Of a stretch of 33,430 bases of DNA, positions 373 to 25,694 are shown piece after piece. Position 1 is the first letter of the stretch, and every line of letters starts with the position of its first letter. The notes beneath the pieces were generated by a model, which saw only the letters and a list, made by a program, of their open reading frames with translations, did not search any database and was not told the DNA's origin. The stretch comes from Desulfobacteraceae bacterium (lineage in GTDB: Bacteria; Desulfobacterota; Desulfobacteria; Desulfobacterales; JAABSP01): contig JAABSP010000057.1 of NCBI GenBank assembly GCA_011390345.1, forward strand, positions 1 through 33,430, written 5' to 3'. The position numbers and the translations under genes were made by a program.

Positions 373-612
373 ATGGATATCCGGCAAAAGCAGCGGAAAT
401 GGGCAAATGAATGGCAGACAGCAGCAGTATCGTTGAAAAAACTCAAAAAGGACGAACTTCGGGCAGATGATTATTATGAAAAGAATCGGAGGCTTTTGGA
501 TGAAATGCTTCAATATGCCCGTGACATCGGTTTAAAAAGAAGGGGCAGCGGCCTTGTGGAGCAGCAGCGGATCTTCAAACAGATCTATGAGATCATGAGC
601 ATGGAGAAATAA
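373..612 (+). CDS. Small conserved hypothetical protein (79 aa), left copy
   Basis: A 79-residue, highly charged and probably helical protein starting MDIRQKQRKWANEW. A strong Shine-Dalgarno (AAGGAG at 363-368) precedes the ATG at 373. It has no signal peptide, membrane segment or recognised catalytic motif. A paralogue at 4569-4880 is nearly identical through VEQQRIFK, after which the C-termini are unrelated. This copy ends QIYEIMSMEK. In both places it lies downstream of a NERD gene and the dispersed repeat, so the unit has been duplicated together. Function is unknown. The duplication and the good ribosome binding site argue that it is a real gene. Confidence 0.6.
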   Translation: MDIRQKQRKWANEWQTAAVSLKKLKKDELRADDYYEKNRRLLDEMLQYARDIGLKRRGSGLVEQQRIFKQIYEIMSMEK

Positions 613-668
613 GTGGAAAGCATTGCAATGAGGCAGGGGAATAATCGAGAGCATTCATCACCAATTTT

Positions 669-682
669 TTTTGTTGACAAAA
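669..682. promoter_or_regulatory. Short inverted repeat over the -35 of the methyltransferase promoter
   Basis: TTTTGT and ACAAAA arms (669-674 and 677-682) are separated by TG and overlap the -35 hexamer. It could be an operator for the HTH domain of the methyltransferase itself, but AT-rich DNA gives such repeats easily by chance. Confidence 0.25.
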
Positions 683-702
683 CCTAATTTTTTGCAGACA
701 AT
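674..702 (+). promoter_or_regulatory. Promoter of the methyltransferase gene (leaderless)
   Basis: TTGACA at 674-679, a 17-nt spacer, then GACAAT at 697-702 gives a good sigma70-type promoter. Transcription would begin about position 709-710, which is the A of the ATG at 710. The message would therefore have no 5' leader, a pattern known for several restriction-modification genes. This promoter also makes the upstream TTG codon at 671 an unlikely start. Confidence 0.6.
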
Positions 703-711
703 GTGTCACAT
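697..711 (+). promoter_or_regulatory. Half-operator (single C-box) at the methyltransferase start
   Basis: GACAATGTGTCACAT matches GACAATAAGTCACAT of the C-protein operator (3337-3351) at 13 of 15 positions. It covers the -10 hexamer and the start codon. A C-protein dimer bound here would block transcription of the methyltransferase, as the single-dimer site does in Esp1396I. Direct observation: the match and its position. Inference: repression. Confidence 0.6.
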
Positions 712-2110
712 GAAGATTTTTACAGACGGAACAGAGTTAAGAAAACTACGCAAGGAACTTGGTCTTAGTCAGTCTAAGCTTTCTGATCTAACTGGCTTGG
801 TTCAAGCAAGAATTTCTGGTTATGAACTAGGAAAAAATAGTTTGTCTGAAAATGAAGAGACTTTAGTTAGAAACACAATTGATAGTCTCGACATACATTC
901 TTTGAGAAAATTAAAAATAAAGCGTTATAAAAAACATGTTCGGAATGGAAATACCCTTGCTGATAGACTCCGCCGCAACTATTCTGTTACTGGCAGAAAT
1001 GCTGAATACTTATCTCTATTAAATGATTTAGAGTTAAATTTTTCAAAATCTTTATCAACTGAAGCACCAAAAGCACTTTCATTTTTTGCTGGTTGTGGAG
1101 GATTATGTTATGGAATAAGTGCTGCAGGTTTTAAAATAGCTGGTGCTTCTGAAATTCATGAAGGCTTCAGAAAAATATATTCTTTAAATTTTCCCAACAC
1201 AATACAATTAACCAATGATGTACGTCAATTCTCAGAAGAGGATTGCAGGGCGGTTTTAGAAAAAGAAAAAAATATTGACTTAATGATTGGCGGTCCTCCT
1301 TGCCAAGGATTTAGTCTTACCGGCAAGAGAGACCCCAAAGATGCAAGGAACTCATTGTTTTCAGATTATTTGAGGATTGCGGAAATAATTAAACCTAAAA
1401 TAATATTGATGGAAAATGTTAAACTATTGACTTCAATGAAAGACCCTGGCGGAAGTTTAGTTACTAAACGGATTTTATCAGAATTTTCCAGGATTGGTTA
1501 TAACGCAGATTTTTTTTGTGTTAATGCAAAAAGCTATGGCGTTCCTCAACATCGAGAGAGAATTATCTTTATCGCTATCCATCAGAATATTCAGAAGAAA
1601 CCTTCCATCCCACAACCCCAATGTGGTGAACAGGCTGATCTGTTTTGCGTCATAAAACCATTTTTTACTTTTGGCGATGCAGTATCTGACTTAGATTTCA
1701 TTGAGTCAGGTGAAAAATCAAAAAAAGACAAATTACATGAAGCGGTATCTCATCCAGAGCATGTAATTGAATGGTTGGTTGATGTTCCTGAAGGTTCAAG
1801 TGCCCATGAAAACATTGATCCCAAATTGAGGCCTCCTTCTGGTTATAATACTACCTATAAAAGGCAAGTTTGGAATGCACCTGGTGCAACAGTGGCTACC
1901 ACATTTGCTATGATTTCAGGATGCCGTAATGTCCATCCAATAGCAACAAGGTCTATTACAACAAGAGAGGCATTGCGCTTACAAAGTTTTCCGGATAGTT
2001 TTAGGTTTACAGGTAAAATGGGTGATATTAGAACATCAATAGGGAATGCTGTCCCTCCATTGATGGCGTATGCTTTTGGAAGACATATATTGAAAAATTA
2101 CATTTTATAA
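710..2110 (+). CDS. C5-cytosine DNA methyltransferase with N-terminal HTH domain
   Basis: Type II restriction-modification methyltransferase that transfers a methyl group from AdoMet to C5 of cytosine in its recognition site. Residues about 8-55 form an XRE/HTH_3 DNA-binding domain (LRKLRKELGLSQSKLSDLTG). The catalytic motifs follow in canonical order: I (FAGCGG, about 126-131), IV (GGPPCQGF with catalytic Cys about 198), VI (ENV, about 235), VIII (QHRER, about 280), then a target-recognition region, IX (RLQSFPDSF) and X (IGNAVPP). I start at ATG 710 (466 aa) because a promoter overlaps the upstream TTG at 671. HTH fusions to such enzymes (M.SsoII, M.MspI type) repress their own promoter. The gene converges on and overlaps the nuclease gene by 13 bp. 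It is visibly AT-rich compared with its neighbours, indicating transfer. Target sequence cannot be read from the protein. Confidence 0.95.
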   Translation: MKIFTDGTELRKLRKELGLSQSKLSDLTGLVQARISGYELGKNSLSENEETLVRNTIDSLDIHSLRKLKIKRYKKHVRNGNTLADRLRRNYSVTGRNAEYLSLLNDLELNFSKSLSTEAPKALSFFAGCGGLCYGISAAGFKIAGASEIHEGFRKIYSLNFPNTIQLTNDVRQFSEEDCRAVLEKEKNIDLMIGGPPCQGFSLTGKRDPKDARNSLFSDYLRIAEIIKPKIILMENVKLLTSMKDPGGSLVTKRILSEFSRIGYNADFFCVNAKSYGVPQHRERIIFIAIHQNIQKKPSIPQPQCGEQADLFCVIKPFFTFGDAVSDLDFIESGEKSKKDKLHEAVSHPEHVIEWLVDVPEGSSAHENIDPKLRPPSGYNTTYKRQVWNAPGATVATTFAMISGCRNVHPIATRSITTREALRLQSFPDSFRFTGKMGDIRTSIGNAVPPLMAYAFGRHILKNYIL

Positions 2111-3069
2111 AAATATCCGGCTTCCAAATTGAATTGGAGCTGAGCAGGATGCTGTTTTTGTCCTCCTCTTTGCATCTGGACTATTCCAAAACGAGGAGCT
2201 TCATGATATATTCCACTTGGATCTTTATATTGTCCTTTCTTCACAGAATATTTTTTCTTTTCGAACCCCCTATATTTTTTTGATAATAAAATTAAATCAT
2301 CAATACTATATAAAGCAAATTCTTGCGGGTCATTTTCCAATTTTTTGGTCTTGTGAAGGATAATTTCTGGAGTAAAAGGGTCATCTAAATATGCTTTCTG
2401 TAATAATAATCTGGTTATTTTATCTTGATAGGTTGTGAAAATATATTCAAATTCTATTCGACCTTTTTGAAAGGTTTCTTCCCAAAAAAAACGCCTTGGG
2501 TCAGTTTTTCGTTTTAAAAGTATTTTTTGATCATCTTGTGGTCTAAATCCGATATCTCCACAGAATTGTCGTAAAGCTTTTTCTCCTTCATCAGAAACAT
2601 CTATATTATTTCTTCTAAGCAGTTCACAAAAAGCATGGGCAGTAGTGAAATAAAGTTGGGCATTTGTGGGCGTTTTGTTGTTACATTGTTTAACTGATAT
2701 ACCAACAGTTTCAGATGTAAAATTTTTGCCATGTAAAGTAATCAGCACATCACTTTTGCATGCTTTAATTCTAACACCATTTATTTCAAGCCATTTTTTT
2801 CCATCTTCAGCGGTTGCAAGCGAACCTAATGCAACTGATTGTGCTTGTACGCAACTGTCCCACCCAAAATAATAAGTTACATAAGAAACTAAAGTCGCAG
2901 CAGGGTCTCCACAGAAAACATTGTTTTCTAGGTTTGAAGGAAATACCGGGTATTGTAGTTTGTTTATTCGTTCTGCAAGTTCGAATTCAAATTTATGTCC
3001 ACATTTGCGCCCTGTAATTCCTGCTTGAATCTGCGCTGCATGAATGAAATCGATAGGTTCCAGAGCCAT
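2098..3069 (-). CDS. Type II restriction endonuclease (putative)
   Basis: A 323-aa protein without an obvious named family. It is assigned as the restriction partner from its place: convergent with the methyltransferase and translationally coupled to a C protein. A plausible PD-(D/E)xK-like core is present: Asp107 in KSDVLI, followed by GISVKQ with Lys127, where Ser125 sits in the usual Glu position (a variant seen in some type II enzymes). Flanking lysine- and aromatic-rich segments are typical of DNA-cutting enzymes. Its ATG (3067-3069) overlaps the last base of the C-protein stop codon, so C and R should be co-transcribed and coupled. It shares the AT-rich composition of the island. Specificity is unknown; a non-nuclease accessory role is the alternative. 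Confidence 0.75.
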   Translation of the reverse strand: MALEPIDFIHAAQIQAGITGRKCGHKFEFELAERINKLQYPVFPSNLENNVFCGDPAATLVSYVTYYFGWDSCVQAQSVALGSLATAEDGKKWLEINGVRIKACKSDVLITLHGKNFTSETVGISVKQCNNKTPTNAQLYFTTAHAFCELLRRNNIDVSDEGEKALRQFCGDIGFRPQDDQKILLKRKTDPRRFFWEETFQKGRIEFEYIFTTYQDKITRLLLQKAYLDDPFTPEIILHKTKKLENDPQEFALYSIDDLILLSKKYRGFEKKKYSVKKGQYKDPSGIYHEAPRFGIVQMQRGGQKQHPAQLQFNLEAGYFYKM

Positions 3070-3296
3070 TAAATATCTTTTAGAAGTTCAGATACCGTAA
3101 TATTTAAGCTGTCTGCAAAAATACAAAGATTGGAAAAAGATAAATTCCTTTTACCTCTTTCTATTAAGCTGATATAGGTTCTATCAAATCCACAAATATC
3201 CGCTAATTCTTCTTGAGATAAATTTTTTAAATTTCTGTATCGGCGTATTTTTTCACCTAATTTTTCAAGTTTTTTTTGTGATGATGTATTTACCAT
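3069..3296 (-). CDS. Restriction-modification controller (C) protein, XRE family
   Basis: A 75-aa single-domain HTH protein. The helix-turn-helix region LSQEELADICGFDRTYISLIERGKRN (two parts: LSQEELADICGF and RTYISLIERGKRN) is typical of C.AhdI/C.Esp1396I-type regulators. I take the ATG at 3294-3296; upstream in-frame codons run through the operator and into the NERD remnant. A characteristic two-C-box operator lies 26-56 bp upstream. In known systems one dimer activates C and R transcription, a second dimer represses it, and a separate half-site represses the methyltransferase. This delays nuclease expression until the host is methylated. The stop codon overlaps the nuclease ATG by one base. 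Confidence 0.92.
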   Translation of the reverse strand: MVNTSSQKKLEKLGEKIRRYRNLKNLSQEELADICGFDRTYISLIERGKRNLSFSNLCIFADSLNITVSELLKDI

Positions 3297-3316
3297 AATA
3301 TGAGAACATAACCTGA

Positions 3317-3351
3317 ATGTTGACAAAAAGTCTACGGACAATAAGTCACAT
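3317..3351 (-). promoter_or_regulatory. C-protein operator with two C-boxes upstream of C-R
   Basis: Read on the minus strand, two 11-mers GACTTATTGTC (3337-3347) and GACTTTTTGTC (3322-3332) are separated by CGTA. The flanks TATGT and AACAT also resemble the Esp1396I operator as I recall it. On the plus strand the boxes read GACAAAAAGTC and GACAATAAGTC. The arrangement is the classical activation/repression switch of C-controlled systems. Confidence 0.8.
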
Positions 3352-3359
3352 ACTGCTTC

Positions 3360-3967
3360 ATGATCTTTCTCACCTGCCGTCTGATCCGGGATTACAACTC
3401 CCGAAGGATCAAACGCCTCGCATATGACGGAGAGGTCGCGGTCGGCCAGGAGCTGCAGTACCTGACGGATCATGTGGCCTTTCACGATTTTCAGGCCGGC
3501 ACCTTCAACATCGACCACATCCTTGTGGGCGCATCGGGCGTCTATGCCGTGGAAACCAAAGCCCGCAGCAAACCCGATGCCAAAGACCCGATGCCAAAGA
3601 TCGGATGAAAAACGCACAGGTCATCACCGACGGCAGAGAACTCCGGTTTCCCAAATGGACAGACCACAAGTCCGTAAAGCAATCTAAAGATGCCGCCATG
3701 TGGCTTTCCCAGTGGCTGCACCGGGAGACCGGCGAGCGCATCTTTGTCCGGCCCCTCCTGGTAATCCCGGGCTGGTATGTGACCCGAAACGCCCCGGCCG
3801 GGGAAAACGATGTTGTGATTCTCAATGAAAAGCAGATCAAAGGATACATCCGGGGCAGGACATCCGCAAACAAACCTCTGCCGCCCAAGCAGATGGAAAG
3901 GATCATCAATAAGCTGGAGGAAAAATCCCGGGATGTGGAACCGCAGGTGAGCCGGTACGATAAATGA
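3360..3967 (+). pseudogene. NERD-domain gene, 5'-truncated and frameshifted (right copy)
   Basis: Residues from YDGEVAVGQEL through FNIDHILVGASGVYAVETKAR give a clear NERD nuclease-related core (conserved D in NIDH, and E and K in VETKAR). The usual N-terminal membrane segments are absent: similarity begins where the AT-rich restriction island ends (about 3355). The frame then breaks. A 14-bp unit, CCCGATGCCAAAGA, is present twice in tandem (3573-3586 and 3587-3600), giving a stop at 3606-3608. The rest of the protein (about 3605-3967) continues in another frame. Removing one 14-mer restores KPDAKDRMKNAQVITDG. The C-terminal 241 bp are nearly identical to the left copy. The gene is presumably non-functional, unless the slippage is reversible or the ATGA overlap at 3605-3608 allows coupled translation of two halves. 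Confidence 0.85.
3573..3600 (+). repeat. 14-bp tandem duplication causing the NERD frameshift
   Basis: Two exact adjacent copies of CCCGATGCCAAAGA. Fourteen is not a multiple of three, so the extra copy shifts the frame. This is a typical replication-slippage footprint and is potentially reversible. Confidence 0.9.
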
Positions 3968-4010
3968 TGCCCGGAAAAGATTCGGCCCGCCCCGGCCCAA
4001 GCGCGAGCCG

Positions 4011-4065: not shown

Positions 4066-4122
4066 TTTCGGCTTTGTATGAAATCGGTCTGATTTCGCTC
4101 CAACGCATATCAGAGAATTATT

Positions 4123-4350
4123 ATGAAAGAAATACCAATATCTGAATTTATTGCCAACTGTCATTTTTTTCTGGAACAAGTGGAACAAAGCGGCCAACCC
4201 CTGACCCTGCTGAAGGACGGGTTGCCCTATACCTGCATTCTGCCCTGTTTTCCGAAGAAAAAAACCCTGTTTGGAATGCATAGCGGAAAAATCGAAATTC
4301 ATGGGGATATCGTTTCTCCCATCGATGTTGAATGGGATGCCATGAAATGA
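4123..4350 (+). CDS. Phd/YefM-type antitoxin
   Basis: A 75-aa protein with the Phd fold pattern: N-terminal MKEIPISEFIANCHFFLEQV with a following LTLLKDGLP segment (DNA-binding/dimer part), and a C-terminal FGMHSGKIEIHGDIVSPID tail typical of Phd-type partners of PIN toxins. Its stop TGA overlaps the ATG of the next gene (4347-4350), as in coupled toxin-antitoxin pairs. The toxin gene is internally deleted, so this antitoxin is probably an orphan. It may still autoregulate or neutralise related toxins elsewhere. The module is absent from the otherwise parallel left copy of this block. Confidence 0.8.
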   Translation: MKEIPISEFIANCHFFLEQVEQSGQPLTLLKDGLPYTCILPCFPKKKTLFGMHSGKIEIHGDIVSPIDVEWDAMK

Positions 4351-4484
4351 TTCTGCTGGATACCCATACCGCAGACCGATTTATCACCGCCACGGCTCAA
4401 AGTATTCATGCTGTTTTGATAACTGCGGACAGAGATATTCTGGCCTGGCCCGGTAATCTCCGCAGGCATAATGCAAAAGTTTAA
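4347..4484 (+). pseudogene. PIN-domain toxin (VapC-like), internally deleted remnant
   Basis: Only 45 codons remain. The N-terminal MILLDTHT carries the first catalytic Asp of PIN toxins. It runs directly, in frame, into a normal PIN C-terminus (ADRFITATAQ, LITADRDILAWPG). The middle roughly 80 residues, including the second acidic residue and the helical core, are missing. Family members are usually about 125-135 aa PIN ribonucleases. The start overlaps the antitoxin stop. The remnant cannot fold as a normal toxin. Confidence 0.8.
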
Positions 4485-4500
4485 GATAGCCGAACCTTTG

Positions 4501-4540
4501 AAGGGTCTGTTGTAGAATCCGTCATGAGGGCGGTTTGAGC
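4501..4540 (+). repeat. Dispersed intergenic repeat, copy 3 (partial)
   Basis: It contains TCTGTTGTAGAATCC at 4506-4520 and continues GTCATGAGGGCGGTTTGA, matching copy 1's right side, but lacks the palindromic half. It forms the right border of the toxin-antitoxin module. Confidence 0.65.
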
Positions 4541-4568
4541 AGGACCGTTTGAACAGGAAGGAGAACGG

Positions 4569-4880
4569 ATGGATATCCGGCAAAAGCAGCGGAAATGGGC
4601 AAATGCATGGCAGACAGCAGCGGGATCGTTGAAAAAACTCAAAAAGGACGAACTGCGGGCAGATGATTATTACGAAAAGAATCAAAAGCTTTTGGATGAA
4701 ATGCTTCAATATGCCTGTGACAGCGGTTTGAAAAGAGGGGGCAGCGGCCTTGTGGAGCAGCAGCGGATCTTCAAAAAGGCAGTTGCGCCGGGAAAAATTG
4801 AAAGGATCTGCCGTGAAGAGAGCGGTGGGAATCGCCCTGAAATCCATTCGCCGGAAGAATGCCCCGAAGATGAAACATGA
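4569..4880 (+). CDS. Small conserved hypothetical protein, right copy (103 aa, altered C-terminus)
   Basis: Paralogue of the 79-aa protein at 373-612, with the same AAGGAG ribosome binding site and near-identical sequence through VEQQRIFK. From there the frame reads a different tail of about 37 residues rich in Glu, Cys and Pro. Another frame over the same tail encodes a basic, amphipathic-looking stretch (RQLRREKLKGSAVKRAV), starting after the run of A's at about 4773-4777. A frameshift or a recombination junction there is therefore likely. Function unknown; no signal peptide or membrane segment. Confidence 0.5.
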   Translation: MDIRQKQRKWANAWQTAAGSLKKLKKDELRADDYYEKNQKLLDEMLQYACDSGLKRGGSGLVEQQRIFKKAVAPGKIERICREESGGNRPEIHSPEECPEDET

Positions 4881-25655: not shown

Positions 25656-25694
25656 AAGGACAAAGGGACCTGAAGGACGCAAAGGACATAAGAG

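Follow-up and report, generated by a model that had tools for sequence, protein, structure and literature searches.

A 33,430-nucleotide stretch of contig JAABSP010000057.1 from a Desulfobacteraceae bacterium (hereafter, the window) encodes a DNA methyltransferase (M), a restriction endonuclease (R) and a controller protein (C). The gene set is very probably a C-controlled type II restriction-modification (RM) system wired like Esp1396I, in which C would switch the C-R operon on and then off and would also repress M, an assignment based on analogy with that system. Two C-boxes precede C-R, and a single box covers the promoter of M, which carries an N-terminal helix-turn-helix (HTH) domain. An earlier note on this DNA had put forward such a circuit; its anatomy, a C operator and a single M box, is present and conserved in divergent relatives, while the binding that the note assumed stays a prediction.

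According to the proposed mechanism, M would be made immediately on entry to a new cell from its own promoter (TTGACA-17-GACAAT), and C would accumulate only gradually. The C-R operon would be activated by one C dimer at the distal box (3337-3347) and shut off by a second at the proximal box (3322-3332). C on the single box (697-707), over the -10 element and the start of M, would block RNA polymerase and lower M once production of R is under way. Binding, activation, repression and timing are predicted here by homology with Esp1396I. The features are as follows, where box loci are those with a C-box on the M promoter.

674-679, + strand: -35 element TTGACA of the M promoter (consensus search; TTGAC with a spacer of 15-18 in 7/7 box loci)
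697-702, + strand: -10 element GACAAT of the M promoter, within the C-box (GACAAT in 7/7 box loci)
697-711, - strand: single C-box, an OM-like site (GACAATGTGTCACAT on the + strand, ATGTGACACATTGTC on the - strand)
710-2110, + strand: M, C5 DNA methyltransferase with an N-terminal XRE-type HTH (domain searches and structure model)
737-847, + strand: HTH_3 domain of M, residues 10-46 (Pfam, structure model and family alignment)
2098-3069, - strand: R, type II restriction endonuclease with a predicted HinP1I/MspI-like fold (PADLOC PDLC03403 REase_II, 2.1e-78; structure matches)
3069-3296, - strand: C, controller protein of 75 amino acids (its stop codon shares one base with the R start)
3322-3332, - strand: proximal C-box, OR-like (overlaps the -35-like TTGTCA of C-R)
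3337-3347, - strand: distal C-box, OL-like (the most strongly conserved box in the family)

The C-boxes of the window

The site at 697-711 (GACAATGTGTCACAT) is identical to 3337-3351 (GACAATAAGTCACAT) at 13 of 15 positions and overlaps both the -10-like GACAAT (697-702) and the first two bases of the ATG of M (710-712), in agreement with the earlier note. GACAAT lies 17 bp from a perfect -35 element, TTGACA (674-679). The note had called the site a half-operator; 697-707 is a complete palindromic dimer site, so it is half of a two-box operator and not half of a single site. A scan of the window with the 15-nt query, allowing up to three mismatches, gave three matches against 0.50 expected, a number reached in 0 of 100 shuffles; these are the query itself, 697-711 (two mismatches) and 2868-2882 (three mismatches). 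The assembly comprises 199 contigs with 4,794,238 bases and is 97.28% complete; in it, GTGACNNATTGTC matches at 697-709 and 3337-3349 and nowhere else, and the reversed-pattern control does not match at all. Searching the assembly for GACAATNNGTCACAT with up to two mismatches gave 29 matches (11 for the reversed control): the M box and the distal box match without mismatches, no site has one mismatch, and 27 have two. The M box and the distal box are thus clear of the assembly background, because all 27 other matches have two mismatches.

The two boxes ahead of C-R, also claimed previously, were both located, the proximal box reading GACAAAAAGTC (3322-3332) and the distal box GACAATAAGTC (3337-3347). 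A two-box operator precedes C-R in each of the 22 loci that have a close C gene. The distal box has the form (A)TGWGACNNATTGTC-CG in 22/22, varying slightly in the first bases and at one central base, and the second, proximal-type box that follows it is less conserved. Column conservation in 13 diverse loci, from 60 bp before to about 35 bp after, identified the operator as the only conserved block; one column beyond it exceeds the 99% level (0.57 versus 0.55), which is about the chance expectation.

The residues that read the box

In C.Esp1396I, R46 and T36 are described as touching the G and C of GTC, and binding was not measurable for T36A and about 30-fold weaker for R46A (PMC4041747). The residues R35, T36 and R46 of Esp1396I align with R39, T40 and R50 of the window C, where the offset to the numbering of the paper is our own reading. 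R39, T40, Y41 and R50 are invariant in all 21 aligned C proteins, whereas none of the 23 M HTH domains has R, T or R where R35, T36 and R46 would align. The box is best read as belonging to C, because the contact residues are kept in C and missing in the M HTH. On the same count, the M HTH was judged unlikely as a reader of the box.

Conservation of the M promoter among relatives

The start of M is readable in 23 loci, of which 18 also have a close C gene; in all 18, the HTH-fused M occurs together with C. Seven of these have a box on the M promoter (the window, L006, L007, L016, L020, L023 and L026), or seven of ten once a clade with a separate XRE-type frame before M (the XRE clade) is set aside. 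The box loci come from the Thermodesulfobacteriota, Pseudomonadota, Acidobacteriota and Planctomycetota, and the M proteins of the other six, which repeat the box and promoter arrangement of the window, are just 41-53% identical to the window M. All seven share the GACAAT -10 element, the TTGAC -35 element, a spacer of 15-18 and the orientation of the box, and GTCAC downstream of the -10 element is also conserved. In 7/7, the ATG follows the first base of the -10 element by 13-16 nt, close to where transcription would be expected to start, from which we infer that the M mRNA is probably leaderless. The boxes were scored with a leave-one-out matrix and compared with the largest of 60 simulated maxima, which was exceeded in five of the seven (the window, L007, L016, L023 and L020).

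Several observations weigh against C control of M. The box in L020 exceeds the simulated maximum narrowly (17.0 versus 16.8), and the boxes in L026 (11.5 versus 14.4) and L006 (7.8 versus 11.4, with a better site elsewhere in the same upstream region) stay below it and are called by position and orientation. Eleven of the 18 loci that have a close C (L008-L015, L017, L024 and L027) are without an M box, and in L017, L024 and L027 there is no nameable substitute either. Moreover, GACAAT matches TATAAT poorly, and the conservation of the box is in part conservation of the promoter itself.

In the tree of R, the window is sister to the L008-L015-type XRE clade (100/97), and loci with the M box occur both within the group formed by the window and this clade and outside it, although many inner branches of the R and M trees are weakly supported. 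Most simply, the M box would be old and would have given way to a separate regulator in the XRE clade; alternatively, the box could have been gained independently in different lineages. In L008-L014, a small XRE-type reading frame, whose start codon is uncertain, is located directly before M, and its product matched Pfam HTH_31 and HTH_3 in the two examined, L008 and L014. The clade is mostly Bacteroidota. The sequence TAYATTTGCCANTANTTGTCAAGTC is conserved upstream of the frame in L008-L014, and the surviving end of L015, where the contig is cut, resembles these loci.

In the same loci, including the cut end of L015, a TTGCCA/TTGTCA pair is conserved behind a TATATTTG element, which we take to be "-7-like". 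The XRE protein before M is a third HTH protein in the gene set of these loci. In L018, C has been replaced by a different XRE protein (L018:4650-4871) with the helix SQQYIS and a Control_protein match of 7.1e-12. No operator site of the two-box type was found ahead of the replacement gene, which is preceded by an inverted repeat, TACATACT...AGTATGTA, seen by eye. The M promoter of L018 has kept TTGACA, and its C-box is degraded to GAGAATCAGTC; as a single case, a degraded box alongside a replaced C is suggestive only. An inverted repeat upstream of M was also seen by eye in the two closely related sequences L027 and L032.

The HTH of the methyltransferase and alternative explanations

The N-terminal HTH_3 domain of M, noted previously, scores 28.6 bits in Pfam (cut-off 23) and is conserved. 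The mean pairwise identity is 0.52 in the HTH and 0.24 in the linker, and 0.52, 0.62 and 0.72 in the first, middle and last parts of the catalytic domain; the alignment behind these figures has 14 rows, with 9 of the 23 M proteins left out. The HTH is confidently folded in the model, with block values of the predicted local distance difference test (pLDDT) of 80-87 over residues 1-60, and it is kept in M of the XRE clade although the box is gone. It does not look like a relic. Since it is well conserved relative to the linker, the HTH probably binds DNA somewhere, and a further effect on transcription is plausible, with no candidate site found for it.

One M promoter under two regulators was the arrangement proposed in the earlier note. 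In it, a C dimer over the -10 element would be joined by the HTH of M on the same box or on an unrecognised adjacent site, so that M would be repressed both by its own product and by C; we consider it doubtful. HTH-fused C5 methyltransferases of the SsoII/Ecl18kI and EcoRII types are described as repressing their own genes (PMC12707154; PMC6100179), conservation in M is far higher in the HTH than in the linker, and the SsoII site AGGACAAATTGTCCT itself holds a GAC...GTC that is C-box-like. However, apart from the box and the -35 element, the seven box loci share nothing conserved over the 60 bp ahead of the M -10, and column conservation gave no second M operator near the M promoter or near C-R. 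The SsoII operator is absent near M, its one window match with three mismatches (at 25657) being at chance level. The C-type residues are missing from all 23 M HTH domains, as described above, and the domain is unlike that of M.Ecl18kI: the recognition helix is VQARIS in the window M and SQHLLS or similar in relatives, but KYGDRTIRRW in M.Ecl18kI. The convergence of two regulators on the M promoter was thus not borne out. An inverted-repeat search of 600-715 was also empty, but counts little because the arms of the C-boxes are too short for its detection, and it missed these boxes too. These comparisons would not reveal an operator that is weakly conserved and changes in step with the recognition helix.

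It is very improbable that the box is the operator of M alone, inactive for C, and resembles a C-box by convergence or shared XRE ancestry. Its location on the M promoter is like that of the operators of self-repressing methyltransferases, and C and M are both XRE-type. Yet GTGACNNATTGTC is common to the M box and the distal C-R box, which is explained by the contact residues of C and not by those of M. In L018, where C is replaced (no DRT helix), the box is degraded to GAGAATCAGTC while the M HTH is kept (QHLLS, as in four box loci), albeit in one case, and the XRE clade keeps the M HTH without the box. Even a functionless match, due to chance or to promoter-driven resemblance, has to be considered, given that part of it is the -10 element and that sigma-70-like sites are no more frequent than in shuffles; by consensus alone the promoter is weak evidence, with 10 such sites in 560-3450 against 10.2 expected. 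This is extremely unlikely in view of just two matches in 4.79 Mb, the same position and orientation in seven loci, and the conservation of GTCAC past the -10 element, which promoter function does not need. Repression of M by C, as in Esp1396I, is the explanation that we favour.

Gene products

M and R are convergent and overlap by 13 bp, and C and R overlap by one base. M matches the C5 DNA methylase family with an E-value of 1.5e-62. For R, there was no Pfam or NCBIfam match at E 0.001 and none of note by sequence in the PDB, while PADLOC REase_II covers it almost end to end (2.1e-78). The structure model of R (mean pLDDT 83.7) matches HinP1I (2fkc; E 4.1e-13, probability 1.00, template modeling (TM) score by target 0.76, root-mean-square deviation 5.5) and MspI (1sa3; E 1.8e-6, TM score by target 0.41). 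By this model, R is predicted to have a PD-(D/E)XK fold of the HinP1I/MspI-like branch. The residues D107 and S125-x-K127 are invariant in all 20 aligned rows, and we take D107, S125 and K127 to be catalytic, by the motifs of MspI and HinP1I. C matches PADLOC Control_protein (5.3e-19), and its closest sequence matches in the PDB are C.BclI and C.AhdI, with C.Esp1396I also matched.

Distribution and sampling

R is rare in the collections that were searched. Relatives of R were found in 1 of 247 genomes of the phylum, which is the window's own, in 2 of 72,556 plasmid records and in 0 of 50,697 phage records. Among species genomes there are at least 19 loci, a lower bound because the scan requires exact peptide patterns. 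The named loci belong to the Pseudomonadota, Thermodesulfobacteriota, Bacteroidota, Ignavibacteriota, Acidobacteriota, Planctomycetota and Fidelibacterota. Viral contigs gave one match with the R profile, none with a single-sequence R scan, and three loci with the C profile; a search of plasmids with the HTH region returned just the two already found. Two diverged viral loci that were found through M (L030 and L031) contain R relatives and no recognised close C. A survey of 105 viral methyltransferase open reading frames (ORFs) in 82 loci (L028-L107, L114 and L115) identified an HTH of this kind in five, although other HTH types would escape it because the profile was built from this M family. 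One of the five has a close C gene (L029, on the same contig as L027). The viral locus L082 has a C-like gene (E 4.1e-22) and a methyltransferase without this kind of HTH.

L018, in which another XRE protein stands in for C, was excluded from the C counts, and L029 and L113 were dropped because they share a contig with L027. The C alignment omits L012, whose C is identical to the L011 protein. L006 and L007 were excluded from the structure alignments. L024, with apparently broken M and R frames, and L026, with R matched over residues 1-88 only and a truncated M, were retained in the promoter counts. The matches to M and to R in L024 are each split in two while C and the operator are intact, and this is perhaps a C protein outliving its system. 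In L027, L028 and L032, M, with or without C-R, is located on IMG/VR contigs beside genes that look phage-structural by eye from the ORFs, and the M start of L028 is, again by eye, just past a tRNA-like sequence.

Surroundings of the gene set

Direct repeats flank the gene set (1-272 versus 3727-3998, 96%; 308-582 versus 4504-4778, 93%). The right copy is longer by about 435 bp (4069-4503), and this additional stretch holds a small ORF that appears antitoxin-like by eye and has no Pfam match. The arrangement resembles an insertion with long target duplication, a term that occurs in papers on RM systems, and the left end beyond the repeat is not visible because the contig begins at base 1. A NERD-domain gene (PF08378, 3360-3967) is split into two frames, and a tandem 14-bp duplication, ACCCGATGCCAAAG, is placed near the split (3572-3599).

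Implications and comparison with known systems

C proteins that repress M and HTH-fused, self-repressing methyltransferases are both known, and a 2025 review describes C proteins and HTH-fused methyltransferases as separate strategies (PMC12707154). No system that combines the two was present among the matches listed in the open-access literature, which is weak evidence of absence. The anatomy of Esp1396I is now found in a different enzyme family and in distant bacteria, and with C and an HTH-fused M in one family, the role of the fused HTH beside C becomes directly testable. If dual control were true, the M promoter would sense both an R-linked regulator and the dose of the methyltransferase, and the family would present a turnover of M control, C-box versus separate XRE gene, with the fused HTH kept throughout.

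In Kpn2I, as in the circuit proposed for the window, C is described as inhibiting the M promoter. Unlike in the window, C of Kpn2I binds ahead of the M promoter and covers the -35 side, the M and C promoters are divergent and overlapping, and another C site is located inside the C gene; the available account of Kpn2I mentions no HTH on M. M.SsoII, M.Ecl18kI and M.EcoRII are, like the window M, C5 methyltransferases with an N-terminal HTH, but the window differs from this type in having a separate C protein. Compared with the M.Ecl18kI protein alone (from pECL18), the HTH sequence and recognition helix of the window M differ. R and M are convergent in the window and divergent in pECL18, and no SsoII-type palindrome of the kind given for the M.SsoII operator, AGGACAAATTGTCCT (PMC6100179), precedes M in the window.

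The system most similar to the window is Esp1396I, although its methyltransferase and box centres differ. The window M is of the C5 type and has an HTH at its N-terminus, whereas M.Esp1396I is an adenine methyltransferase that is not known to carry an HTH. R of the window is predicted to be HinP1I/MspI-like. The distal and M boxes of the window have NNATT where Esp1396I has a central TATA. In both, the C-R operon is convergent with M and has two boxes, and a single box is placed at the transcription start of M, which in the window is predicted from the -10 element. For Esp1396I, the convergent layout and the location of OM at the M transcription start are described in PMC4041747, which calls the repression of M by C unusual. 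Finally, C of Esp1396I and C of the window have the same base-reading residues.

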